Shown here: positions 51,505-63,942 of the stretch, piece after piece
Numbering within the stretch: the stretch's first letter is position 1
Layout: every line of letters begins with the position of its first letter
DNA from: Chitinophagales bacterium
GTDB taxonomy: Bacteria > Bacteroidota > Bacteroidia > Chitinophagales > Saprospiraceae
NCBI GenBank assembly: GCA_013298845.1
Contig: JAAFJN010000012.1
Coordinates: forward strand, 1 to 64,000
Reading direction: 5' to 3'
DNA: 64,000 nucleotides
Program-made: the position numbers and the translations under genes
The notes under the pieces: model-generated
What the model was told of the DNA's origin: nothing
Database searches by the model: none
What the model saw: only the letters and a program-made list of their open reading frames with translations

Positions 51505-52275
51505 TTAAGCGGCTTTTCCGCTTTCTGCTTTGGCGATAGAATACACTACCAAACCAAAACCAATTTTGTTAACGGCATCCGCGATGTTGTAGAACAAGTC
51601 CACACCGCCTGCCTGCCAGCCCAAACCGGTGTTCAACCAGCCGCCCGGCATACACATATAACCGATGGGGTAAATAGCCCAACCTGCCAATACGAACCAC
51701 GCCAACGCGCGGATACCGCTTTGAACGGCAGTACTCTTGGAACCTTCGGCCAATTGTTTGGCTTCGCCGAACCACGCAGAATACAATACGTACAGGTAAC
51801 CAATGGTCGAAATAGCGCCCCACATGAACGAGTGCGTTGATGCGCCCGGACCCGCAGTGCCGTCGGCATTCATAGGTACGTATGCTTCACCGATATAACC
51901 GGCTACCAGCATCAATACCGAAGCCAGGATCAGTTTCCACATGAAGCCCGTTTTGGCACCCGCTGGTTTGAGCAACAGGTAAAACTCGACGCACATCAAC
52001 GGAACGGTAAGCGTCCAGTCAATATAGCGCAATGCCGTAGGGGTAGAGTTAGTTTGTACGTAGTAGTCGCGCATGTAGTAGTAGTGCACAGCGGCAATAC
52101 CAGTGATCAGGCCCGATACCAACAACGACGTTTTCCACTTGTCATCTACAGTGCCCCGTTCGAAAAAGAAGAACACACTGGCGGCCAACATGGCCATGTA
52201 ACCCGTGAAAAAAGTAAATGCAATGGGATCATTCTTCGGAATGATAACGATGTTTAAGAATAGATTTTCGTACAT
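51505..52275 (-). CDS. Light-driven proton pump, xanthorhodopsin-like, with antenna fenestration
   Basis: 256 residues, seven helices, from ATG at 52273-52275. Helix C reads RYIDWTLTVPLMCVEFYLL: Asp86, Thr90 and Glu97 give the DTE triad of outward proton pumps, and Met94 sits at the tuning position (green-absorbing in known Bacteroidota pumps). His64 in helix B (AAVHYYYMRD) matches the proton-acceptor partner of proteorhodopsin, and Lys237 (DAVNKIGFG) binds retinal. Helix E has FMWGAISTIGYLY against bacteriorhodopsin FVWWAISTAAMLY, so Gly153 replaces Trp138. That glycine opens the carotenoid-binding side window in xanthorhodopsin. Retinal can come from the divergent blh gene. Confidence 0.96.
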   Translation of the reverse strand: MYENLFLNIVIIPKNDPIAFTFFTGYMAMLAASVFFFFERGTVDDKWKTSLLVSGLITGIAAVHYYYMRDYYVQTNSTPTALRYIDWTLTVPLMCVEFYLLLKPAGAKTGFMWKLILASVLMLVAGYIGEAYVPMNADGTAGPGASTHSFMWGAISTIGYLYVLYSAWFGEAKQLAEGSKSTAVQSGIRALAWFVLAGWAIYPIGYMCMPGGWLNTGLGWQAGGVDLFYNIADAVNKIGFGLVVYSIAKAESGKAA

Positions 52276-52959
52276 GTTGAGTGCTTTAAAGTGAAGTGTA
52301 ATTCGCAATCAAACGGAGCATTAGGCAATTTGTTCAAAAAAAATTGAAAATTTGTTAACATAATTTTTGTTTTTTAAAAATTTTGCAAAAAAATATTAAA
52401 GCCTATTTCTGTTCTGTTAACGATTTAAATTTGTTTTTGGACATTTACCTTTTACACTACAAAATATTCTGAAAAAGTATTTTATTGTAGTTTTTTGTTT
52501 TGAATCGACACTTCCTTATTCCGTATTTTTGACCCGATCACCGTCATGAGCCAAGGTTACACTTGCGATAAACACACCCGTTTTGATTTAAAAAAAGCCA
52601 TTTTAGTGAATTAATTTTCAAAAACCGACCTTTTATACCCTTATTTAAAAATACATCATCTAACTTACGACCTTATTCGCTTTGAAAATACCATTAGACA
52701 ATAATACCGGATACCACCCCCCTCTTTTATATTGCTTTAAATTTTTTTTAAAAAACAAAAAGCAAAATAAAAATTGGTATTATTTTTCAAAAAAACCATC
52801 CGTATTTTATTTAAAAAAAAACCTGTGGAACTTATTTTTTACAAAAGTTAAACAAAAACAAACACCCGGCGGTTAGGCTATTGGTACGGCAGTGGGTACC
52901 CCATTTCAGGGGTGCATCCGCCCGGATTTTCAGACCTGATTTACGCACGAACAAACACA
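52276..52959. other. AT-rich regulatory gap between rhodopsin and blh
   Basis: 684 bases, very AT-rich. It contains an imperfect inverted repeat CTACAAAATA...TATTTTATTGTAG (52458-52492), a plus-strand TATTTTTG -7 box (52524-52531) with TTTG about 21 bases upstream, and a 22-codon frame starting 16 bases after that box (52547-52615). A 64-codon TTG frame at 52682 looks like chance. A light or stress regulator could act here, but no known operator was recognised. Confidence 0.45.
52524..52531 (+). promoter_or_regulatory. Candidate -7 box inside the rhodopsin-blh gap
   Basis: TATTTTTG, about 430 bases ahead of blh and 15 bases ahead of a 22-codon frame. It could give blh a long leader. Confidence 0.4.
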
Positions 52960-53904
52960 ATGGTACTTCAACGAATAGCCGCCTCCCCCACCCTCGTCAG
53001 CATTGCGCTGGGGGCCGGATTAGTCCTGATGCAGCAGTGGAATGGCGGATTATCGCCGCTCGTTCAAATGACTTTTTTTGGGTTATTGCTGGGCCTCACG
53101 GGCATTCCCCACGGTGCCCTCGACCACCTGGTGGAGCAGGAAACCGCCCGGAAGGAGCAGCGGCCCTTTCACTTGTTCCCGTTTTTGGGGCGCTACCTGC
53201 TCACCATGGCGTTGTACGGCGCACTTTGGCTGGTGTTCCCCAGCGGCAGTTTGTTGTTTTTCCTGCTGATGTCGGCCTGGCATTTTGGCGAAACCGACCT
53301 GGAAAAAGCCCCGCCAACCTGGCCCTGGAACCTGGCCCGGTTCACGCTGGGCGCCCTGGTCCTGTTGGGTATTTTGCTACTCCACCGCGCAGAAACTGCG
53401 CCATTGGTGGCCCGCATCAGCGGCGGCAACGCGGCGGTGCAGGCCACTTGGGATTTTTTGGCCGCCCAAGCAACGGCCACATTGGCCACCCTCGCGCTGG
53501 CCTTCGCGACGCTATTGGCGGTAGCGTACCGGCAACATCCCATTGCGATAAATGGCGGACGGGCGGCTCGGTGGGCGTGCATTCTCCTCCTGACGGTGTG
53601 GCTGCCGCTGTTACCGGCGTTTGCCCTGTATTTCGGCGGTTGGCACGCGCTCAATACGTTCGGGGCCATTGGGCAGTATTTGTCGGACGGCCCGCCCCCC
53701 GTGCGCCCTTCGGTGGGTTACGGCTTAAAAATATGGGCCAAAACGGCCCTTTTTACGGGTATTGCCTTGTTGTTTTTGGGCCTCGGGGTGTGGTACTGGT
53801 TCCGTTTTTGGCCGCACCTGGACCCGCTGCCGGTGGTGTTCGTTTTTTTGTCGCTGATTACATTACCGCACTTGAATGTGATGCGGAAGATGAATCGGGG
53901 GTGA
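52960..53904 (+). CDS. blh: Brp/Blh-family beta-carotene 15,15'-dioxygenase
   Basis: 314 residues from the ATG at 52960, with about eight membrane helices. Blh cleaves beta-carotene to two retinal molecules at a mononuclear iron. The His residues expected to bind or position iron are present: His51 and His56 (GIPHGALDH), His108 (SAWHFGETD), His229 (GGWHALNT) and His304 (LPHLNVM). Length and topology are normal. It supplies chromophore for the adjacent rhodopsin. No carotenoid synthesis gene (crtE, crtB, crtI, crtY) is in the window. Confidence 0.93.
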   Translation: MVLQRIAASPTLVSIALGAGLVLMQQWNGGLSPLVQMTFFGLLLGLTGIPHGALDHLVEQETARKEQRPFHLFPFLGRYLLTMALYGALWLVFPSGSLLFFLLMSAWHFGETDLEKAPPTWPWNLARFTLGALVLLGILLLHRAETAPLVARISGGNAAVQATWDFLAAQATATLATLALAFATLLAVAYRQHPIAINGGRAARWACILLLTVWLPLLPAFALYFGGWHALNTFGAIGQYLSDGPPPVRPSVGYGLKIWAKTALFTGIALLFLGLGVWYWFRFWPHLDPLPVVFVFLSLITLPHLNVMRKMNRG

Positions 53905-54004: not shown

Positions 54005-56278
54005 ATGCAAAATGATGGTAATCAATTTGAGCAAAAAGTAATAGCTGTTGCAAGATACTTGTGGCCTAACTCACAGATAAATGGCTCTTACACTTTTAAT
54101 GGAAGAGAACGTGATGGTGTATTTATCACCGAAGATGTAATTCATCTCTTAGAAGTAACCACTTCGAAAACTAAAGACAAAGCATACTACGACGTACTAA
54201 AATTGACAGAACTAAAGAAGGAGTTCGTCAACAAGTACCCTGAAAAGCATGTTAAATGTTGGTTTATTACGAAATGTGAACCTACCGCAGATCAGAGAGC
54301 AGCAATTGAGCCCACAGGTGTAGCTGTAGTCTCTTTTGAACAGTTTCAAAATAGATTATTTAATGCCACTGATTATTTAAACAAACGAGACTTGCATAGT
54401 TTTGGGAGTGTGCGAGATCCCAAAACAGATAAAATTAAATTCGAGGACAAATATGTACCTACTAATTTAGTAGAGGCGTCATCAAATTTGAATATTTCCA
54501 TATCTACACTATCCTCTAAGTTAACCCTAGGTAGTAATATCTATGTTATTTTAGGTCATTTTGGAGTTGGAAAAAGCCTAACATGCAAAGAAATATTTAA
54601 TCAACTAAAAACAACGTATAGAAAGAACAGAACCAATAAGTTTCCTATTTTTTTGAATTTAAGGGAGCATGATGGTCAAAAAAATCCTGCTGAGGCATTA
54701 ATCAGACATGCAACACATATTGGATTTGATAATCCTAATTCTTTAGTTTACGCATGGAAATTAGGCTTTGTAACGTTAATTTTAGATGGCTTAGACGAAA
54801 TGCCACCACTAACATGGATTGATAGACCAACCAAGTCTAAACAGGTTCGATATGGAACTATGACCTTGTTAAGACACTTTATTGAGGAATCCCCATCTGA
54901 TGTGAGTATTCTTATGTCTGGCCGGATTAATTATTTTGATTCCGATGAAGAATGTGTTAATTCTCTGGGGGGGAATGGTATTAATATATTGCACTTACAT
55001 GATTTCGATGAACACCAACTAACCCAGTATCTGAAGGAAAATAGTTTACAAAACATCAAACTCCCTGAATGGTTTCCTACACGCCCACTTCTTATCTCTT
55101 ATTTAGTCAATAAAAACTTTCTCAAAGAAAAAATACTAACAGAAGAATTAGATCCTGCAAGTGGGTGGGACTGGCTTCTTGATAAAATTTGTGAAAGAGA
55201 GGCAAAAATTGAGAATGGGATTGACCCTAAAACAATAAGAGATATCATTGAGAAACTAGCTTCATTTTGCCGAACGTTGAAAATAAGCTCTTTAGGACCA
55301 ATACCCAAAAGTACAATTCACGATATTTTCACTGAAATTGTGGGATATAATCCAGAAAGTGAAAAACGTGCACTAATCATGCTTCAGCGATTACCCGGAC
55401 TAAGTGCGCCGACGAATGGCAACGATGAATTTCGTTACTTTATTGATGAAAACTTGTTGCAGGCAGCTTGCGCTGGCGAGGTATTTAAATACATACTAAG
55501 TCCTTATCTTAAAGACAGAGTAGATAACCCTCACCAATGGGTTTCTGCATTGTCACCTCTTGGAATATCTACTATTGCGTTACACGTCAACAAGAAAAAA
55601 ATTGACTCAAATACTGTAATGGATGCGATCAGATTATCTAAACAATATGATTCAGATGCATTGACTTGTGATTTATTACTATCACTAAATGAAATAGAAA
55701 CACCTTGGATAAGGGGGCGAATTACTGTAAGTGATGTAGTTATTCCAACATTAGAACTCAAAACAGGACTATTGTCATCTGTCGAGTTTAGAGAAGTTAT
55801 TGTCAAGAATTTAATAGTAGATATAGCATCAATTAATGAAGACATACCGCTTTTTGAAAAATCTTTAATCCTATCTGTGCAGGGGGTACATATAGAATCT
55901 ATGCTACCTAGCGGTAGGTTTAACTCTGTTGATTTTGAAAAATTCGATGATTACATAGAAACTAACGAGGCTATACTAAGTAGAGAAGACCTAAATATTG
56001 TTCAGAAAATAAGCATAACCATTTTAAGAAAACTATACCTTCAGAAAGGTGGGGGGCGACAGGAAAAATCATTGCGTCGTGGCTTATCTCCCAAACATCT
56101 TGTTTATGTCGATCAGGTTTTAGATATCATAGAGAAAGAAAACCTAGCTTTTAAGAGTAAAGGAAACGGAATAAATAGAGTATGGATTCCGATACGTTCT
56201 AAAACAAAAGAAGTAATGGATATTGTTAAGTTGAGAGACAAAAACAATAATTTTTTATCAATGTTAAAAAATTATTAG
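54005..56278 (+). CDS. Nuclease-NACHT (bacterial NLR-like) defence protein
   Basis: 757 residues. The N-terminus (1-110) looks like a PD-(D/E)xK/Mrr-type nuclease: Glu9, Asp37 (RERDGVF) and Glu50 in HLLEVTTSK, where the last motif is ExT rather than ExK. A STAND/NACHT NTPase follows: Walker A GHFGVGKS (184-191), Walker B LILDGLDEMPP (Asp261 region, with the acidic pair typical of NACHT) and ILMSGRINYF as sensor. The C-terminal 350 residues carry no clear repeats; they probably sense the trigger. Such proteins are antiphage NLR-like systems that activate the nuclease on infection. The gene is AT-rich (about 35% GC against over 50% for its neighbours), a sign of transfer. Confidence 0.85.
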   Translation: MQNDGNQFEQKVIAVARYLWPNSQINGSYTFNGRERDGVFITEDVIHLLEVTTSKTKDKAYYDVLKLTELKKEFVNKYPEKHVKCWFITKCEPTADQRAAIEPTGVAVVSFEQFQNRLFNATDYLNKRDLHSFGSVRDPKTDKIKFEDKYVPTNLVEASSNLNISISTLSSKLTLGSNIYVILGHFGVGKSLTCKEIFNQLKTTYRKNRTNKFPIFLNLREHDGQKNPAEALIRHATHIGFDNPNSLVYAWKLGFVTLILDGLDEMPPLTWIDRPTKSKQVRYGTMTLLRHFIEESPSDVSILMSGRINYFDSDEECVNSLGGNGINILHLHDFDEHQLTQYLKENSLQNIKLPEWFPTRPLLISYLVNKNFLKEKILTEELDPASGWDWLLDKICEREAKIENGIDPKTIRDIIEKLASFCRTLKISSLGPIPKSTIHDIFTEIVGYNPESEKRALIMLQRLPGLSAPTNGNDEFRYFIDENLLQAACAGEVFKYILSPYLKDRVDNPHQWVSALSPLGISTIALHVNKKKIDSNTVMDAIRLSKQYDSDALTCDLLLSLNEIETPWIRGRITVSDVVIPTLELKTGLLSSVEFREVIVKNLIVDIASINEDIPLFEKSLILSVQGVHIESMLPSGRFNSVDFEKFDDYIETNEAILSREDLNIVQKISITILRKLYLQKGGGRQEKSLRRGLSPKHLVYVDQVLDIIEKENLAFKSKGNGINRVWIPIRSKTKEVMDIVKLRDKNNNFLSMLKNY

Positions 56279-56288
56279 ACTCTTCGCC

Positions 56289-57536
56289 TCACCGCCGCAC
56301 CAAAACCTCCCGCACGTCGTCGTAGCGATAGTGCACAATGTCGCCGCTGATGATAAAACGAATGGCTTGTTCAATGACAGGCAAAGGCACTACAAACCAT
56401 TCCCGTGGGTTGTAACGCTGACCGTTTTCACCAAAAATATCCAATTTTAGGGCCACTGCCCCAAAAAATTGGTGTAATAAATGCTCAAAACGCTGAGGGT
56501 TGAGGTTATAACACTGAAATACACTCACGATGGATACATCGGCCATCAGGTAAGTTGCTTCCCGGGCAGCATTCCTGACCCGTTCTTCCACCGGAGTGGT
56601 CGAATACCCAATCTTATATAAATGCCTGATTTCCCGAATTTGCGGTTGTGGATTCAGCGACTTTAACACGTAGATAAACCCGGTTACGGTGTCTTCATCG
56701 GTAATTTGTTGGAAATTTCTGGCCAGTTCCTCGGCCACACTCGTTTCGTTTTCGGTAATCGCATAACCGTTGTCTAACAAAGATTTATACAACGACCGGT
56801 ATAACATATTTGATTCTGTGCCATTTTCGAAAATGACGCGGGTACGTCCGTCTTTGCGCGTGCGGCTGCCGCTCTGATACGGCTGCACCTTTTCTTGATA
56901 ATCTACTTGCTCAAGCAGCAACAAAATGCCGTTGTGAACGTAGTATTGTCCTTCGCGCAAGTTTTCTTCCTTGAATTCGGTGAGTTTTCTTTTACCGGAG
57001 GCCAAGTCATTTTGTACCGATTTAAACCCCGTTTCATACTGGTCAAAATTTTTGCAGGGCTTGCGTTTGGCCACAAAATCGGTGGCGGCACGTTCTTGTT
57101 GATTAGGAACATGCCGAAGGTTGAAAAGATCCCCTGCAATGGCATCTTCCTCTTCAATACTGCCAAACAACGGGTCATTCCATATATCATCCAGTGAACG
57201 GACGGGAGGCGTGTACGTGGCATTATTTTGCTCGGCCGCCATCATCAGTCCTAATACATTGTAAGTATCGAAAGGGCGCAGTTTCGCCGCCCTCACCTCG
57301 TCTTTTTGCAGGGATGCCAATCGGGAAAACAATTTGTGCTCCTGCGGATCATTGGCCTCCGCATGGGGTAAGCGCCCGTGTTTTTCGTAAAAATCCGAAA
57401 TTTCCCTAAAAGAACTAATCAGACGCTCCTCTTCCGTACGCGGCGGGGCAGCCGCCGGTTTTACCTGCAATATTCCCAGCGGATCGTTTGTAAAAATAGC
57501 GTCCAAAAATGCCTTTTTTTTATCCTCGCGTTCCAT
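56289..57536 (-). CDS. GIY-YIG (T5orf172-type) nuclease of a five-gene operon
   Basis: 415 residues. The C-terminal domain (about 285-405) is a T5orf172/MUG113-type GIY-YIG nuclease: FIYVLKS (287-293), LYKIGYSTTPVEERV (307-320), then FEHLLHQFFGAV and REWFVVPLPVIEQ. The N-terminal half has a helicase-associated-like segment (FYEKHGRLPHAEANDPQEHKLF) also seen at the C-end of the upstream helicase. It begins 4 bases after that helicase ends and is the last gene of the operon. Likely the DNA-cutting component. Confidence 0.87.
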   Translation of the reverse strand: MEREDKKKAFLDAIFTNDPLGILQVKPAAAPPRTEEERLISSFREISDFYEKHGRLPHAEANDPQEHKLFSRLASLQKDEVRAAKLRPFDTYNVLGLMMAAEQNNATYTPPVRSLDDIWNDPLFGSIEEEDAIAGDLFNLRHVPNQQERAATDFVAKRKPCKNFDQYETGFKSVQNDLASGKRKLTEFKEENLREGQYYVHNGILLLLEQVDYQEKVQPYQSGSRTRKDGRTRVIFENGTESNMLYRSLYKSLLDNGYAITENETSVAEELARNFQQITDEDTVTGFIYVLKSLNPQPQIREIRHLYKIGYSTTPVEERVRNAAREATYLMADVSIVSVFQCYNLNPQRFEHLLHQFFGAVALKLDIFGENGQRYNPREWFVVPLPVIEQAIRFIISGDIVHYRYDDVREVLVRR

Positions 57537-57540
57537 GATA

Positions 57541-59481
57541 TTATCCAGGTTTTTGGGCCATTTGTTTTCTCTTTTCCTCTTTTAGGTAAATGATACATTC
57601 GGCCATGCGCCGCTCCAGCGGGTCGCTGGTATTTAAGTTAGGCTCGCGGCTGTTTTCCCGGATAAATGCCTGAATTTTTGGCCAAAGAATGGCGGCTTCT
57701 TCAAAGTCCATGCTGATACGCGTGGCTTCAATGGTCTCCTGAATCACTTTTAGCACCTTGGGCGTGACCGATTTGGACAAAATTTCAAATGCTTTCTGGA
57801 AAGGGTTAACCTGATCAATCAAGTCAATGTGCAAATCATCAATGTTTACAAATTGACCAGCCATTCGGATAAAACGCTGGTCGCCCTGCTCCATAATTTC
57901 ACCACTCCGAATGACGGAATCAATAACCACGTACTGCCGCACCTCTTCTACCTCGGCCTCGGTGAGTTCGGGATATTTGGTTTGAATAATTTTTGGAATC
58001 AACACCCGGTTAATGACCTCGGCGTCCACATTGCCCGGCATGGCTTTGAGCATATCGTTGTCTTGCAAAATGGTCGCTTTGAGGTCATTTAAATCCGACT
58101 CAATGATGTCTTTTACCTTCTGAGTGCTCGGCGCTTTAAACCCCTTGATTTTTATTTCTCCCGCCTCGGCCCGGTCTTCGTCCGAAAGTTTGGTTTTAAA
58201 CTGAAACGTTGGCGCTAATACCTGCTCCATTAATAAGGAGGCCGTTATAGCCTTGAGCATGTTATTCACCGAAAGTTTCACGGCATCATCGGCGGCATCG
58301 GGTTGGGCAATCAGGTTGGTGAATTGCGCGTGGGTTTTATTGGCACTGTCGCGAGTGGCACGGCCAATAATCTGGATAATTTCGGTGAGTGAACCACGGT
58401 AACCAACCGTGAGCGCGTGTTCGCAAAATGGCCAGTCAAAACCCTCTTTGGCCATACCCAAGGCAATAATCAGGTCCAAATCGTCGGGTTGAGTGATGGT
58501 ACGGAGGTAAGCCACCACCCGTTCACGCTCTTTGGGGTTATCGTTTACCAGATCGGCCACTCGAATTATTTTACCGTCACTACGCCGCCTTACGTTCATG
58601 ATACCCGATACCGGATCCGTTGAAACATCATCACCAATGTGGTCCAAAATAATATCTACTTCCCGGTATTTGTCTTTTAGCGACTCACCCGAATTCACAT
58701 TGGGAATGTGCAGAATCGTTTTTTTATCGGTATCCAGTATTTCCCCAATGGCTGTGGTGTATTTCCCCTGGTAAAAATGATAGCCTATTCCCAGCGACTT
58801 GAGATGCTTGTAACCATTGAGTTGCTCGTAATAATTATAGGTAACTTTGGTGAATTTGGCCTCGTCATCGGGGTGCAATACGGCTACTGTATCGCCACGA
58901 AAATAAGAACCCGTCATAGCGATAATGTGCGCCGTGGAATGCGCCATAACGCTGCGCAGCAGTTCGCCCAGCCGGTTTTCGTCGCTGGAACTTACGTGGT
59001 GAAATTCATCAATGGCGACCAGCGTCCCGTCAAAGTCGTTATCGGAAAGGGTTTCGTAAGCAAACCGCAACGTAGCGTGGGTGCAAATGAGGATATCACC
59101 CGCCAGATCGTGCATAAAGTTCCGAAATGCCTCCACTTTGCTTTTACTGCCGTCGCTGCCCGGTGTACACAGGTTATACCGGTCTTGGGGTGCCCAATCG
59201 GCAAAAAAGCCCTGTTCACTAAGCGAAGCGGGCGAAAATGAACCACCAATGGAGCGCTCCGGAACTGCCACAATTACCTTGCGAACACCCTGATACCTCA
59301 ACTTATCCAACGCTAAAAACATGAGTGCCCGCGATTTGCCGGAGGCCGGAGGGGCTTTGAGTAACAGGTATTGCGCATCGCGTGCCGCGTAGGCCCGCGC
59401 TTGCATGTCGCGCATACCCATATGGTTGGTGGCGGCACTTTTGCCCGTTTGGGCGTATTGGACGTTGATTAAATCAGGCAT
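57541..59481 (-). CDS. SF2 DEAD/DEAH-type helicase of a five-gene operon
   Basis: 646 residues with all main superfamily 2 motifs: Walker A APPASGKS (43-50), CTHATLRF (motif Ib region), DEFHH (motif II), AMTGS (motif III) and QIIGRATRD (motif VI). It resembles the motor subunits of type III or other restriction systems. The C-terminus (REPNLNTSDPLERRMAECII) repeats the helicase-associated-like pattern of the GIY-YIG partner, so the two may interact through it. It lies 53 bases after the DUF3037 gene. Confidence 0.92.
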   Translation of the reverse strand: MPDLINVQYAQTGKSAATNHMGMRDMQARAYAARDAQYLLLKAPPASGKSRALMFLALDKLRYQGVRKVIVAVPERSIGGSFSPASLSEQGFFADWAPQDRYNLCTPGSDGSKSKVEAFRNFMHDLAGDILICTHATLRFAYETLSDNDFDGTLVAIDEFHHVSSSDENRLGELLRSVMAHSTAHIIAMTGSYFRGDTVAVLHPDDEAKFTKVTYNYYEQLNGYKHLKSLGIGYHFYQGKYTTAIGEILDTDKKTILHIPNVNSGESLKDKYREVDIILDHIGDDVSTDPVSGIMNVRRRSDGKIIRVADLVNDNPKERERVVAYLRTITQPDDLDLIIALGMAKEGFDWPFCEHALTVGYRGSLTEIIQIIGRATRDSANKTHAQFTNLIAQPDAADDAVKLSVNNMLKAITASLLMEQVLAPTFQFKTKLSDEDRAEAGEIKIKGFKAPSTQKVKDIIESDLNDLKATILQDNDMLKAMPGNVDAEVINRVLIPKIIQTKYPELTEAEVEEVRQYVVIDSVIRSGEIMEQGDQRFIRMAGQFVNIDDLHIDLIDQVNPFQKAFEILSKSVTPKVLKVIQETIEATRISMDFEEAAILWPKIQAFIRENSREPNLNTSDPLERRMAECIIYLKEEKRKQMAQKPG

Positions 59482-59534
59482 AGATTGTGTACGTTGAACG
59501 GCTTTTATCAGGCTGTAAAACCGCTATGATTAGT

Positions 59535-60395
59535 TCAGATTAGCACGATTTCATTAATCGTTCGTTCGGCGTACGACGGAATGTTGGCATCCTCAATGAT
59601 TTCTATATTCCCGGCCCGGAGTATATCTTCTATGGCCTGGTCATAAGCACCATATAAGTGTCGGCTGGATGGTTTGGCTACCAATAAATCAAACCGGACA
59701 TTTTCATTCAAAGCGTAATCTCTCAAAAGAGAGAACTTTCCGAAATACAATTCCCCTTTGCGCTGAATACTATCCTTTTTACGCAAATCGAGGCTAACGG
59801 GGGTAACAAGATTTAAGGTGTGGTTTTGCCACGCAAAGTCAAATTTATACTGACGATTATTGTATTCCGCAATAAAGTCTTCCCGAATGGGTCGGGTTTT
59901 AAAAAAATCTGCGCTTTTTTCGCGAATGTACTTTTTGTACTGAGCGGCTAACCAAGAGTTATCTTTTTGATTGTACTCATCGGCATCACCATCATAGACC
60001 GAAATAAAAAGTTCCTTCAATTGCGCGCACACGGAGTACACATCCCCCCGGTAAAAAACGGCGGTTCTGATGGGCGAAAACTGAAGTGCACTGCTATCAG
60101 GTGATAAAAAATAGTTTTCCACCAGCGACTTGGCCGAGTATTCCAGGTGATAATTGGAAAACAATTCGGGTTTTTTAGATAAACTGGTGGCGGTCCAATG
60201 AAAACCGGTGAGCCAGCCATTTAAAAGTTTTTCAGGAGCCTGTGGAAAGGCATCCTTTAATCGTTTTAATTTTTGAGGGTATAAAAACTCAATGTGGTGT
60301 TGCTCCGGGAACAGCACCAAAACGCCTAATGTCAGTTTCTCATCCCGCCGGAGGTTGTGATACTGAAGAAGTGAATATTGATACTGGGAACTCAT
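59535..60395 (-). CDS. DUF3037 protein
   Basis: 286 residues starting MSSQYQYSLLQYHNLRRDEKLTLGVLVLFP, the DUF3037 signature (YSLLxYxxxxxRxExLNVGVVLF). Family function is unknown; it is often paired with a HipA-like kinase, as here, with a 4-base overlap. It may be the partner or substrate of the kinase. Confidence 0.88.
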   Translation of the reverse strand: MSSQYQYSLLQYHNLRRDEKLTLGVLVLFPEQHHIEFLYPQKLKRLKDAFPQAPEKLLNGWLTGFHWTATSLSKKPELFSNYHLEYSAKSLVENYFLSPDSSALQFSPIRTAVFYRGDVYSVCAQLKELFISVYDGDADEYNQKDNSWLAAQYKKYIREKSADFFKTRPIREDFIAEYNNRQYKFDFAWQNHTLNLVTPVSLDLRKKDSIQRKGELYFGKFSLLRDYALNENVRFDLLVAKPSSRHLYGAYDQAIEDILRAGNIEIIEDANIPSYAERTINEIVLI

Positions 60396-61216
60396 GATAG
60401 TTGTCGGTTTAAAATATGGAGAAAAATATCAGATTTATTTTTCACCGTGCAAAGATAGTCAATTATTCCTTCTACATCGCCGCACGGATGCCCATTTTCC
60501 TGTAAAAACTGAGCCTTTTCGGATAAAATTTCCGGGTCAAATTCTTTTAGCCTTTTCATAAAAAAAGAAAATGGTTCGCTGGACAAAACCTTTTTATTAT
60601 TTTTCAGATACGGATAAAACAAATGTTGCGTATGCTGATACTTCCATTCTCCTTTTAAAAAATTCGTTATCAGCGCATCATTGGGCTGGTCGGGATCATT
60701 GTGAAACGGAAATATCTGCTCGTGATCAATTAATATATAATCGCCTTCACAAACGAGTAGATTGGGTTTGTTGCGGAAACCTCCGCGGTCCAGGTTCCAA
60801 ACCAGGTTGTCAAAGGCGTACAAAGAGGCTAAATCCAGGCCCTTAATGATAGATTTGGGAATTCTATCGCTAAACAAGGTGGCATTTTCTACGTGTTCCG
60901 TTGCAAAACGAAGCCCCCGGTGGCATTCTGCATTTCTATTTCGGGCTTCATCACTCAAGGTTTGAAGAAAATCCGGGTTGAACCGCGCCAATACCGCACG
61001 TGGAACGGGCAACCCAAACGCCTGGGCTAATACATTGCCATATACCTCTTTCGCCACTGCATTTTGTTCAGTAATTTGTTTGTGGGTAAACATTTTAACA
61101 ATGTAATGCCCCTGTACACCGGTATGGGGGTTTTCCAGTTTCATCATCCAGGGATAGGTTGATCCTCCTTTCTCCAGTATTGCTAACAAGTCAGTGGCTA
61201 AAAAGATTTCCATCAA
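60392..61216 (-). CDS. HipA-like kinase
   Basis: 274 residues of the short HipA-like kinase family (HipA_2). Catalytic pattern: NLVWNLDRGGFRNKPNLLV resembles the HNxDxxxKNxxLL loop of HipA (catalytic Asp, metal-binding Asn), and YILIDHEQIF the metal-binding Asp strand. The N-terminal domain of full HipA and a HipB-like HTH gene are absent. It overlaps the methyltransferase start side by 4 bases. In this operon it may regulate or trigger the restriction activity through phosphorylation, which is inference. Confidence 0.85.
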   Translation of the reverse strand: MMEIFLATDLLAILEKGGSTYPWMMKLENPHTGVQGHYIVKMFTHKQITEQNAVAKEVYGNVLAQAFGLPVPRAVLARFNPDFLQTLSDEARNRNAECHRGLRFATEHVENATLFSDRIPKSIIKGLDLASLYAFDNLVWNLDRGGFRNKPNLLVCEGDYILIDHEQIFPFHNDPDQPNDALITNFLKGEWKYQHTQHLFYPYLKNNKKVLSSEPFSFFMKRLKEFDPEILSEKAQFLQENGHPCGDVEGIIDYLCTVKNKSDIFLHILNRQLS

Positions 61217-63906
61217 TTTTTGGTTTTGCTTTTTTTGGCCCCGGCGGCGAACAGGGTCCCCCGCGATTTTTCTTCGGCCAGCATGGTTTCGTACAGTTTA
61301 AAGAGGTATTCGAGGCGTTCTTCGTCGCTGCCAAAAGGCTGGGGCCGGTAGCACTGTTCCACGGCCAGGTCCAGTGCCTGGTGCGCCGCCCGCAATTGAT
61401 CGGGCATTTTTTCGGGGTCGTACAGTTGCGCCAGCGTGCGCTCCGGGTATTCTTCCCGCGCCGCCAACACCGCAAATGTGTGCGCCTGCAACTGCTTTTT
61501 TTGCTCGGCACTGAGCGGCGGAAGCGGGAAGGTATTGTAGCAAAGTTGGGTCGAATAGCGATAGTCCATTTTTAACCGGCCGCCAACAGTGCTGACCCAA
61601 TTCATATGCATTTTTGATGTCAAAATTGCGAATATCCAAGGCTCTGCGTCATATATAGCATTGGCCGCATCTGAAATAAGAGAATCTTTATCTAGGAAGC
61701 CAATAGGGATATAACTTCTTCGTTCTGAAGATGTTCTAGGGACTATTATCGAATTTGAGTCATTATGAACAGAATAATAATATTTGTGAGGATTTGAGGC
61801 GGATTCAACAGTACTTCGCTCAGAGCTATTAAGTCGGAACTCTTTTACTCGTTCTAACCGTTCCACAATTTCACTAATTGAAAATGCAATTTCTAAATTC
61901 TCGTCTTTAATATACAAGCACCATCTTTCTCGTCCTTGAATAAATTCTGCTGAGCCGACAAATTTCCTAAACAATATATCTGCCTCTGGATTCTTAAAAA
62001 TAAGATTGTTTTTCTCTTCTGTTGTGAATATTAAGTGACCATTATCAACAATTTTACTTCCATAATTCATTTTGGGTATTTGCGACAATGGTTTCATTCT
62101 TTTGTCTATGATGAGAGTAGACCCACTAGTAAGATATGGCGATATACTGTTTGTGTATTGGACCTTATCATCGAAAAACAATTTTTTATTGTTATTGATC
62201 TTATTTTCTACACCAATAATAGTGCAGTAAACACCAGCATTAAACTTGGCATTGTTTCCCCATTTAAAAGATTGATAAGCAAATGAAATTTCTAAGTTTT
62301 GTTTAAAAACATATGGCCAAAGTAAAGTTACTTGCTCTCCTTGACAAATAGAGTTAGTAGTGACAAATGAAAACTTGGCATTAAATCCAGTAATATATCG
62401 TGCCGCAAGGATAAACCAGCAACATATGTAGTCTAAATCTTTGTAGGAAGAAAAGCCTTTTGCCGCAAATGCAAGGTCGTCTTTTTGAGCCTTATTTTGA
62501 ACATAAGATCCCAAATACGGCGGATTTCCCAAAATAAATACTTCGCCGCCATCGGTGGGGTGCGGGCAGACCTGGGTCCAGTCGAGGCGGGTAGCGTTAC
62601 CGTGTACGATATGGCCGGAGGTATTGAGGGGTAGTGCGGGTTTGGCGCGGCCCAGTTCGGCCACGAACTGTCGGTTCATCTGGTGTTCGGCGAGCCAGAG
62701 GGAAAGCAGGGCAATTTCGTGGGCAAAATCGTCGAGTTCAATGCCGTAAAACTGGTCGAGGCTAATGCCGGAGAAAGCGAATTCGCCCAATTCTTTAAAT
62801 ATCTGAATTTCGAGCAGGCGCAGTTCTTTATAGGCAATAATGAGGAAATTGCCCGAACCGCAGGCCGGGTCGAAAACGCGTATTTTGCAAATTCGCCGGT
62901 GCAATTCGATCAGTTTTGCTTTGTTGCCTTTGATCGCGATAAAAATATCAATCAATTCATCCAGAAACAGGGGTTTTATTACTTTCATGATATTGGGGAC
63001 GCTGGTGTAGTGCATACCCAGTCCGCCACGGTGCGCGGGGTCCACCACGGCCTGAATCATGGAGCCAAAAATATCGGGGTTGATGGCGGCCCAGTCGAGG
63101 GTACCGCATTCGAGCAGGAGCGAACGGCTGCGCCGGGTGAACGCAGGCACGGCATAATTGCCCCGGAACAAGCCGCCGTTTACGTACGGGAACGCTTCCA
63201 GGAACGCGGGCAGGTTGTTGCGTTCGGGGGTATTAAGTACCACAAAGAGGCGTTCGAGGTAAGGAGCCAGATCGGAGCCATCGTCCTGGGTATGGCTTTG
63301 GATGGCGTTGGTAAATTGCCCCGACTGAAAGATTGCGGTGTCTTCGGCGAAAAAACAAAAGAGCAGGCGCGAGAGAAATACGTTTAAGGCGTGGGTATCG
63401 TCGGGGTGGGCAGCCGGGTTATCTTTGGTAATCTGGTCGTAGAGTTTACTCATTTTCTCCGCCGCTTTTACATCGGCGGGGTTTTCGACCTGGTATTGGG
63501 CTTTTTCCATACCGACGAGGGGTAGGAAAAAGTCAAAATAGCGATGGAGTTCGGCGATGGGTGTATCCAGGGTTTCGAGGAGTTTGGTGTCCCATGCGCG
63601 CAGGTGTTGGGGGGAGGTAATAAGCAGGAAGCGGGGTTTTTGTTTGGCGGTATCCGGGTTTTGTTTGGCCAGTTCAAGTTCAGCGTTTATCCGGCTGTCG
63701 TCGGTGACGTGTTTAAAAAAGGCTTTCCCTTTCCAGAGGATTTCGTCTTTGTGTTTTGCGACATTAAGGGAACCTTTTTGGAGGCGGGCGACGGTAGCAT
63801 TTGGGGTATCGTAAGCCAATATCAACTGATAGAACAGTTGATCGGGTTGTTGGGGCGGATTTTGGGCGAGTTCAGCGACGCGTTGCTCGATTTGGGTGAT
63901 GGTCAT
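61213..63906 (-). CDS. Class I SAM-dependent DNA methyltransferase, N6-adenine type
   Basis: 897 residues, first gene of the operon. Motif I FDPACGSGNF (345-354) binds SAM and motif IV NPPY (about 460, ILGNPPYLGSY) is the N6-adenine catalytic loop. The N-terminal 340 residues (LILAYDTPNATVARLQKGSL, FDFFLPLVGMEKAQYQVENPADVKAAEKMSKLYD) are typical of Bacteroidota methyltransferases related to MmeI, but I see no clear PD-ExK nuclease motif. Residues about 465-765 should form the target-recognition region, and this segment (about 61,600-62,520) is AT-rich while its flanks exceed 55% GC, a mosaic. The protein probably marks self DNA for the helicase/GIY-YIG pair. Confidence 0.92.
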   Translation of the reverse strand: MTITQIEQRVAELAQNPPQQPDQLFYQLILAYDTPNATVARLQKGSLNVAKHKDEILWKGKAFFKHVTDDSRINAELELAKQNPDTAKQKPRFLLITSPQHLRAWDTKLLETLDTPIAELHRYFDFFLPLVGMEKAQYQVENPADVKAAEKMSKLYDQITKDNPAAHPDDTHALNVFLSRLLFCFFAEDTAIFQSGQFTNAIQSHTQDDGSDLAPYLERLFVVLNTPERNNLPAFLEAFPYVNGGLFRGNYAVPAFTRRSRSLLLECGTLDWAAINPDIFGSMIQAVVDPAHRGGLGMHYTSVPNIMKVIKPLFLDELIDIFIAIKGNKAKLIELHRRICKIRVFDPACGSGNFLIIAYKELRLLEIQIFKELGEFAFSGISLDQFYGIELDDFAHEIALLSLWLAEHQMNRQFVAELGRAKPALPLNTSGHIVHGNATRLDWTQVCPHPTDGGEVFILGNPPYLGSYVQNKAQKDDLAFAAKGFSSYKDLDYICCWFILAARYITGFNAKFSFVTTNSICQGEQVTLLWPYVFKQNLEISFAYQSFKWGNNAKFNAGVYCTIIGVENKINNNKKLFFDDKVQYTNSISPYLTSGSTLIIDKRMKPLSQIPKMNYGSKIVDNGHLIFTTEEKNNLIFKNPEADILFRKFVGSAEFIQGRERWCLYIKDENLEIAFSISEIVERLERVKEFRLNSSERSTVESASNPHKYYYSVHNDSNSIIVPRTSSERRSYIPIGFLDKDSLISDAANAIYDAEPWIFAILTSKMHMNWVSTVGGRLKMDYRYSTQLCYNTFPLPPLSAEQKKQLQAHTFAVLAAREEYPERTLAQLYDPEKMPDQLRAAHQALDLAVEQCYRPQPFGSDEERLEYLFKLYETMLAEEKSRGTLFAAGAKKSKTKN

Positions 63907-63934: not shown

Positions 63935-63942
63935 CAAATGTA
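63935..63942 (-). promoter_or_regulatory. -7 box of the five-gene defence operon
   Basis: TACATTTG on the minus strand, 28 bases upstream of the methyltransferase start. It lets the whole operon be read from within this window. Confidence 0.55.

Follow-up and report, generated by a model that had tools for sequence, protein, structure and literature searches.

Five tightly packed genes encoding a methyltransferase, a kinase with its partner, a helicase and a nuclease raise a simple question: are they one defence system, or two systems sharing an operon? They lie in the window, i.e. the whole stretch of 64,000 nucleotides analysed here, from a contig of a Chitinophagales bacterium. A preliminary description had read them as a single restriction-like antiphage system, an interpretation that our analysis supports in part. 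The five genes are two modules, a core and an inserted pair. The sequence comparisons make it probable (about 0.8) that the locus is a DnmA-YeeB-YeeC-type restriction-like operon with a PDC-M66 (DS-6/HipAD) pair inserted at the methyltransferase-helicase junction.

Layout of the operon

The features, in the order of transcription, are:

63935..63942, minus strand: TACATTTG box, a possible promoter element for the operon, 28 bases upstream of the ATG
61213..63906, minus strand: DnmA/MmeI-like N6-adenine DNA methyltransferase (897 aa; Pfam, PDB, motifs)
59482..61212, minus strand: cargo slot, the methyltransferase-helicase interval, filled here by the kinase/DUF3037 pair
60392..61216, minus strand: HipA-like Ser/Thr kinase (PDC-M66A), embedded cargo (274 aa; HipA_2, PADLOC)
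59535..60395, minus strand: DUF3037-type partner (PDC-M66B), probable antitoxin, embedded cargo (286 aa; PADLOC)
57541..59481, minus strand: YeeB-like SF2 helicase/translocase (646 aa; DEAD, Helicase_C, ResIII)
56289..57536, minus strand: YeeC-like GIY-YIG (T5orf172/MUG113) nuclease (415 aa; MUG113, T5orf172)

The list of open reading frames confirmed the number of genes, their order, their single (minus) strand and their junctions. The kinase starts either at TTG 61216, overlapping the methyltransferase by 4 bases, or at ATG 61213, with an overlap of 1 base (TGATG). It overlaps the DUF3037 gene by 4 bases, and gaps of 53 and 4 bases separate the latter from the helicase and the helicase from the nuclease. 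All five genes are intact, and they are not chance reading frames, since the helicase has relatives at 63-76% identity across many phyla. The family assignments were borne out by Pfam and PADLOC, that of the DUF3037 protein by PADLOC, its Pfam score being below the cut-off (15.4 vs 22.6 bits). The box said to lead the operon is indeed present upstream, and we take it to resemble the Bacteroidota promoter consensus, but the octamer has three occurrences in the window where chance alone predicts 3.56, so that by itself it is no evidence of a promoter. Promoter and terminator scans also gave results at chance level.

Distribution of the core and of the pair

The methyltransferase, helicase and nuclease recur together. 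Among the best 80 helicase loci of 584 matched stretches, spread over many phyla, the methyltransferase lies upstream in 68 and downstream in one; the remaining 11 lie on contigs that stop within 2.4 kb upstream. In 79 of these 80 loci the nuclease comes next, the last contig stopping at the helicase, and the two matches are at most 136 bp apart in 78 of the 79. The helicase was also matched in 263 plasmid records (over 80% of its length in 153), and its two matches among phage records span a quarter of it. The restriction-type composition and the defence-island setting proposed earlier were judged right.

The interval between methyltransferase and helicase is a slot that other loci fill differently. 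Leaving the window aside, other reading frames occupy it in 45 of the 85 distinct core loci with an upstream methyltransferase (33 of 68, and 12 of 17 further ones), and 67 of 70 such frames share the strand of the core. They include Gabija, AbiJ-like, Fic, RhuM, Schlafen-like and other genes, of many unrelated families. On a helicase tree of 68 rows the presence of cargo changes 21 times, which is close to the mean of 22.9 for shuffled labels. Judged by their sequences, the slot contents are interchangeable, and a filled slot, often with defence genes, is what generalises among DnmA-YeeB-YeeC-type loci. Comparison with genus mates returned just remote homologues of the flanking dioxygenase, and therefore no empty site could be read.

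The kinase and the DUF3037 protein do form a pair, as had been proposed: of 15 other loci with the DUF3037 partner, 13 have the kinase adjoining. Their union with the core did not hold up: the core is found in none of these 15 loci within the stretch fetched (in L124, L126, L137 and L141 one flank is cut by the contig end), and the pair in none of the 85 other core loci. Among 396 genomes of the same order, a strong helicase match (E below 1e-150) was found in 17 and a DUF3037 protein in 10, and the two lists share one genome, that of the window. In most cases, then, the pair is found without the core, the finding named beforehand as refuting the reading as one system. In seven of the 15 loci it has Type I restriction genes beside it on the same strand, and in four (L123, L137, L138, L140) it sits inside a Type I operon, between the methylase/specificity and the restriction genes. 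No named system had been said to have the composition seen here; the exact combination was indeed not found in the papers searched, but both halves have been described already.

The five proteins

The methyltransferase has five MmeI domains (MmeI_N, hel, Mtase, TRD and C; best Pfam E=8e-105), far above a weak N6_Mtase match (2e-6), and among solved structures it matched MmeI alone (PDB 5hr4, E=2e-199, full-length domain homology). The methylase motifs DPACG[SC]GNF and NPPY-type are intact in 61 of 61 core rows, and from its domain content the protein bears its own target-recognition domain. The N-terminal nuclease fused to it is a different matter. All of D, E and K are present in the four alignable rows of standalone homologues, i.e. 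those with no helicase within the ~20 kb fetched, whereas E and K occur together in none of the 60 alignable core rows, including the window, which has EKV at the three catalytic columns. By these residues the fused nuclease of the MmeI-like protein is dead, its E-x-K lost. We rejected an autonomous MmeI-type Type IIL enzyme, because the PD-ExK active site is not in the chain, and a Type I restriction system, because none of the five proteins matched HsdM_N, Methylase_S or HSDR_N in Pfam. The automatic PADLOC label of the methyltransferase, REase_MTase_IIG, misleads by implying a Type IIG restriction enzyme in spite of the dead nuclease.

The helicase matches DEAD barely above the Pfam cut-off, and Helicase_C and ResIII barely below theirs. 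In an alignment of 34 of the 81 available rows (mean column identity 74%), the positions of PPASGKS, DEFHH and QxIGRxTRD are invariant or nearly so. The nuclease is of the GIY-YIG type (MUG113 7e-13, T5orf172 3e-11 in Pfam), with G286, Y289, K308-I309-G310, R319, E351 and H355 invariant in all 72 aligned rows. Solved structures gave no match to the helicase at E 0.001, none to the kinase or nuclease at 0.1, and nothing better than E 0.095 for the DUF3037 protein. The AlphaFold model of the helicase (mean pLDDT 69) matches many SF2 helicases in Foldseek, including HsdR and LlaBIII, but with a TM of ~0.3, which is not diagnostic; that of the nuclease (mean pLDDT 84) had no Foldseek match at E<=0.001.

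The kinase matches HipA_2 (Pfam, E=2e-12) and PDC-M66A (PADLOC, E=4e-26), and its partner matches PDC-M66B (PADLOC, E=7e-31). Both are distant from the other members found, at 25-34% identity in the case of the DUF3037 protein. The motif residues N, D, R, K, N, D and H of the kinase, whose functional roles we assume, are identical in 14 of 14 rows; the last motif E is present in 13 and replaced by D in one, and the N-lobe K is present in all 13 rows that reach it. As far as the alignment can tell, the catalytic residues are intact. A HipBA toxin-antitoxin, which has a HipB-type helix-turn-helix antitoxin, was rejected, the partner being DUF3037-like, with no HTH family match in Pfam or PADLOC. 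Spread of the pair by phages or plasmids was rejected as well: the DUF3037 protein had no plasmid match at E 1e-5, and neither protein matched viral contigs in a search that detects close relatives only.

The PDC-M66 family is known in the literature as DS-6/HipAD, where it is described as a defence pair of toxin-antitoxin-like character (excerpts of PMC12548924 and PMC13092281). The same excerpts report, for related pairs, that the kinase is required for defence, that deletion of the DUF3037 gene is toxic and that the other parts tested of the operon are dispensable (PMC12548924), and that a catalytic mutant of the kinase abolishes defence (PMC13092281). The DUF3037 protein is a probable antitoxin of the kinase, and the abortive-type role first suggested for the pair was judged right.

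Function and relation to known systems

DnmA is described as lacking an endonuclease motif and as followed by a helicase gene and then a T5orf172/GIY-YIG gene, a cluster for which others have proposed a Type I-like role (excerpts of PMC7261158 and PMC9973331). Deletions of the dnmA and yeeB homologues of Vibrio crassostreae reportedly increased sensitivity to some phages (cited second-hand in the excerpt of PMC9973331). We assign the core to this group by its architecture, by these descriptions and by the match of B. subtilis to MmeI_TRD among control genomes. DnmA would methylate one adenine in a non-palindromic host site, and together with YeeB and YeeC might act in a Type I-like manner against unmethylated foreign DNA, with YeeB as the translocase and YeeC taking over the cutting from the lost MmeI nuclease. 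The kinase would be silenced by the DUF3037 protein until a phage disturbs it; the freed kinase could then phosphorylate a host target and stop growth. The pair would be a second line of defence, co-transcribed and translationally coupled with the first. By analogy with the other operon in which a relative was tested, it probably acts independently of the core.

Alternatively, the pair might guard the core, sensing what state the DnmA-YeeB-YeeC complex is in and firing upon its inhibition or upon DNA cutting. PrrC offers a precedent: the EcoprrI Type I enzyme holds it inactive until a phage antirestriction peptide sets it free (excerpts of PMC3874165, PMC3710099 and, in single mentions, PMC12707154). 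The equivalent place of the pair in four Type I operons, the shared strand of nearly all slot frames and an AAA_13 gene with a PrrC-model match (PDC-S06) in the slot of one core relative (L051) fit this idea. Yet the tested relative functioned without its neighbours (PMC12548924, excerpts), some pairs lack recognised restriction genes nearby (L128 and L135, neighbours scanned in part), and the unrelated families of cargo, together with a presence that does not track the helicase tree, argue against specific contact between cargo and core. We consider such guarding unlikely.

Its general form is a bolder idea, drawn from the same analogy, and quite unlikely: DnmA-YeeB-YeeC operons might be a general docking platform for exchangeable abortive modules, with the core keeping the inserted toxin silent and freeing it once a phage disables restriction, in the manner of EcoprrI and PrrC. 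If true, the junction of modification and restriction would be a dedicated slot into which any of a dozen unrelated toxins could be plugged.

Equally doubtful is a core that is a relic for methylation only, or an addiction platform, with the pair maintaining the locus as a toxin-antitoxin. The B. subtilis dnmA-yeeB-yeeC genes restricted neither plasmid uptake nor three phages and were termed a relic (excerpts of PMC7261158 and PMC9973331), so that the function of the core is not general, and the related pair behaves like a toxin-antitoxin (PMC12548924, excerpts). But the five genes of the window are all intact, and catalytic residues of YeeB and YeeC conserved across phyla are unexpected in a relic. 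Finally, an integrated five-part system with the kinase as obligatory switch is highly improbable, as the compact, overlapping genes on one strand that would suit it are outweighed by the 0 of 15 and 0 of 85 associations.

Reading the locus as a core with inserted cargo prevents the double naming of a five-gene 'new system' and provides a testable rule: about half of the DnmA-YeeB-YeeC loci examined bear interchangeable cargo, much of it defence-like, at a single precise junction. This makes the junction a new hunting ground for embedded defence genes. A core of disputed restriction activity, inactive in B. subtilis and reported active in Vibrio in the sources excerpted above, also gains intact relatives to test.

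The embedding of defences in operons is a known concept; we found neither the present combination nor the slot count in the literature searched, and the terms of the core are absent from PMC12421847. EcoprrI with prrC, and other Type I operons with embedded defences, such as TgvAB (PMC11411939), likewise place a second defence inside a restriction operon, but both core and cargo differ from those of the window, where contact between the two is hypothetical. MmeI (Type IIL/IIG) shares full-length domain homology with the window methyltransferase, which has lost E-x-K and has its helicase and nuclease encoded separately. In PDC-M66/DS-6/HipAD, whose two PADLOC models match the two window proteins, the kinase is likewise upstream, the genes overlap and the residues are intact; the window pair is distant in sequence and has a DnmA-type operon as its host, whereas the setting elsewhere is a retron, a Type I system or another context. 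DnmA-YeeB-YeeC (B. subtilis yeeABC and the Vibrio crassostreae homologues) has the same gene order and a methyltransferase without nuclease motif, and the window operon, known here from sequence alone, differs from it by two additional genes in the gap between methyltransferase and helicase.

A five-gene minus-strand operon

The ORF listing of the window bears out the preliminary description of a minus-strand operon of five genes, at the coordinates it claimed:

61213-63906, minus: MmeI-like methyltransferase, 897 aa
60392-61216, minus: HipA-like kinase, 274 aa
59535-60395, minus: DUF3037-type partner, 286 aa
57541-59481, minus: SF2 helicase
56289-57536, minus: GIY-YIG nuclease

The junctions are also as claimed: two 4-base overlaps, a 53-base gap and a 4-base gap. 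With an alternative kinase start (ATG at 61213) the methyltransferase/kinase junction becomes TGATG, a 1-base overlap. The motif TACATTTG lies 28 bases ahead of the operon's first ATG; it occurs three times in the window against 3.56 expected, which is chance frequency.

A NACHT STAND-type gene (54005-56278, plus; 757 aa; NACHT E=6e-9), likely another defence gene, converges with the operon, leaving 10 bases between its end and the nuclease gene. Directly beyond the window's right end, in a copy of this locus (L002 14224-18495, contig C4), are further defence-like genes: a 126-aa/358-aa pair whose larger protein is caspase-like by eye and lacks a Pfam match, an IrrE-type M78 peptidase gene and a TIR-S24 peptidase fusion gene. 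A rhodopsin gene (51505-52308, minus) adjoins a divergent beta-carotene dioxygenase gene (52912-53904, plus), for which only remote homologues were found, in 10 of 40 genus mates of the window's genome.

A conserved core with a slot for cargo

The methyltransferase, helicase and nuclease form a widespread core. At least 584 matched stretches of genome contigs encode a relative of the helicase, and we kept the best 80 loci (63-76% identity), whose record titles name Bacteroidetes, Planctomycetes, Leptospiraceae, Campylobacteraceae, Pseudomonas, Chlamydiae, Methanosarcinaceae and others. Among these best 80, an MmeI-like gene lies upstream of the helicase in 68 and downstream in one (L047); it was not seen in 11, in each of which the contig ends at most 2.4 kb upstream. 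A GIY-YIG gene follows the helicase in 79, the contig of L074 stopping with the helicase. Helicase conservation is very high, columns averaging 74% identity across 34 aligned rows, and all 72 aligned nuclease rows keep the GIY-YIG residues unchanged.

At L043, L060, L079, L084, L085 and the single locus L146/L161, the nuclease matches in two separate pieces, broken near residue 90-136, suggesting that its N-terminal domain is detachable. Over a short segment, the C-terminus of the helicase resembles the N-terminus of the nuclease (hhalign E=9e-4, probability 22%), perhaps because of a shared docking element. Genus g60 has a divergent helicase (L147-L150, L154-L157; frames of 631-688 aa) with the same nuclease neighbour, its motor 54-56% identical and its C-terminal part about 33%.

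Still among the best 80, the methyltransferase-helicase gap, measured between tblastn match ends, is at most 79 bp in 35 of 68 loci and at least 480 bp in 33, and the helicase-nuclease junction is at most 136 bp in 78 of 79 (463 bp in the other). The 33 filled slots hold 70 ORFs of at least 60 aa, of which 67 have the same orientation as the core. Twenty of the 70 were scanned for families; a few of these (L007 8016-8948 and those of L020 and L061) had no clear match. By BLAST links among slot ORFs, the Schlafen, RhuM, Bro-N and Fic groups reach many other loci.

Families matched by scanned slot ORFs (locus in brackets)
Gabija GajA and GajB (L025)
AbiJ-like protein (L055)
Fic with PDC-M59 partner (L028)
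SoFic-like protein (L062)
RhuM/PDC-S05 (L013)
Bro-N protein/PDC-S13 (L007)
Schlafen AlbA_2 proteins (L010, L033, L044)
PDC-S06 (L051)
PDC-S42 (L044)
PD-Lambda-2_B-like M78 protein (L018)
PDC-M24-like proteins (L068)
KAP NTPase (L034)

A second sample of 23 loci came from phylum and order searches, free of the top-80 selection and leaving out the strong match G569; three repeat the first set, judged by the length of the contig and the position on it, and 20 are new. The methyltransferase is upstream in 17 of the new loci, with a gap above 400 bp in 12, two of these imperfect (only a methyltransferase fragment in L162; a helicase split by an opposite-strand ORF in L174). No methyltransferase of the MmeI-like family lies within 11 kb upstream in L160, and the contigs of L169 and L176 end before that region. 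On a helicase tree of 68 rows, which lacks the cargo locus L082, cargo presence changes 21 times against a mean of 22.9 with shuffled labels (116 to 136 of 500 shuffles were equally low), and is thus not clustered.

The kinase/DUF3037 pair as probable cargo

The kinase and its partner match PADLOC PDC-M66A (4e-26) and PDC-M66B (7e-31). Seven kinase motif positions are identical in 14/14 rows, the last E is kept in 13/14, and the N-lobe lysine is present in all 13 rows reaching that position. In the published pair of this type, kinase deletion is reported to abolish defence and DUF3037 deletion to be toxic, the tested neighbours (HTH, ncRNA, reverse transcriptase activity) being dispensable (PMC12548924); DS-6, renamed HipAD, is described as losing defence in a catalytic mutant, with a predicted kinase-partner contact (PMC13092281).

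Of 395 genomes searched in the phylum, a PDC-M66B match of any extent is present in 78, but one over most of the model in only eight (the window's included), and nine have a helicase match at E<1e-130; both occur in two, and in the one other than the window's (G238) they are about 171 kb apart. The remaining 70 PDC-M66B genomes match less of the model, most of them only briefly and within a frame of ~131 aa; a short DUF3037 form seems common in the phylum. In the order, where 396 genomes were searched, the DUF3037 protein occurs in 10 and a helicase match below 1e-150 in 17, the sole overlap being the window's genome.

We fetched 15 other DUF3037-partner loci from these lists, excluding the 70 phylum genomes with short or weak matches. 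A kinase adjoins DUF3037 in 13 (all except L125 and L136), in line with the anticipated pairing. Same-strand Type I restriction genes stand beside the pair in seven (L122, L123, L126, L137-L140) and opposite-strand type I-like genes near it in one (L134). The core is in none of the 15 within the stretches fetched (one flank is shortened by a contig end in L124, L126, L137 and L141), and no core-locus slot except the window's has a kinase or DUF3037 match. The earlier proposal of a single five-gene system is therefore abandoned.

Our results are best read, with a probability of roughly 0.8, as a restriction-like core into which a kinase/DUF3037 defence pair was inserted as a second line. In the first line, self DNA would be marked by methylation by DnmA (the methyltransferase, named after its B. 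subtilis counterpart), which with the YeeB helicase and YeeC nuclease would act on unmarked DNA, presumably by cutting. In the second, DUF3037 would hold the kinase until infection, the putative trigger, frees it to halt growth. A guard arrangement modelled by analogy on EcoprrI, a Type I enzyme, and its guarded toxin PrrC is improbable; it would draw on that described precedent (PMC3874165, PMC3710099, PMC12707154) and on L123, L137, L138 and L140, in whose Type I operons the pair occupies the corresponding position, between modification/specificity and restriction genes.

Comparison with MmeI and DnmA-YeeB-YeeC

The methyltransferase matches all five MmeI domains in Pfam and MmeI structure 5hr4 (E=2e-199). 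As reference we used MmeI homologues that stand alone in other genomes of the window's genus and order (L129, L130, L132, L133), with no helicase within the roughly 20 kb fetched. The catalytic nuclease columns read DEK in all four standalone rows and in 0/60 core rows, where E and K never occur together, E occurs alone once (L049) and K alone never; the window's protein reads EKV. This count excludes window copies (L002, L116), standalone-gene fragments (L117, L118, L121) and rows with gaps at these columns (core L060, standalone G397), and methyltransferases with <85% query coverage were kept out of the alignment. Because the residues at these columns are lost while the methylase motifs are intact in 61/61 core rows, the in-chain nuclease seems, from sequence, to have been traded for a separate helicase and nuclease.

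The core module and the kinase/DUF3037 module are each already published. The idea of embedding has also been published, reportedly by Payne 2024. Defence cargo in DnmA-YeeB-YeeC loci is named in no title or abstract start found, in a search that covered few subscription papers and no bioRxiv preprints, and the slot is the most useful general point of the window's locus.

B. subtilis DnmA (YeeA) is described as a GACGAG methyltransferase homologous to MmeI but lacking the endonuclease motif, followed by yeeB (SF2 helicase) and yeeC (T5orf172/GIY-YIG) in an order kept in other bacteria, and a Type I-like mechanism has been proposed; plasmid uptake and three phages were reportedly not restricted (PMC7261158, PMC9973331). 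In Vibrio crassostreae, deleting the dnmA and yeeB homologues is said, second-hand, to raise sensitivity to some phages (PMC9973331). Among our control genomes, B. subtilis has an MmeI_TRD family match. The window's core shares with DnmA-YeeB-YeeC, whose proteins we compared by description, both the gene order and the motif-less MmeI-like protein.
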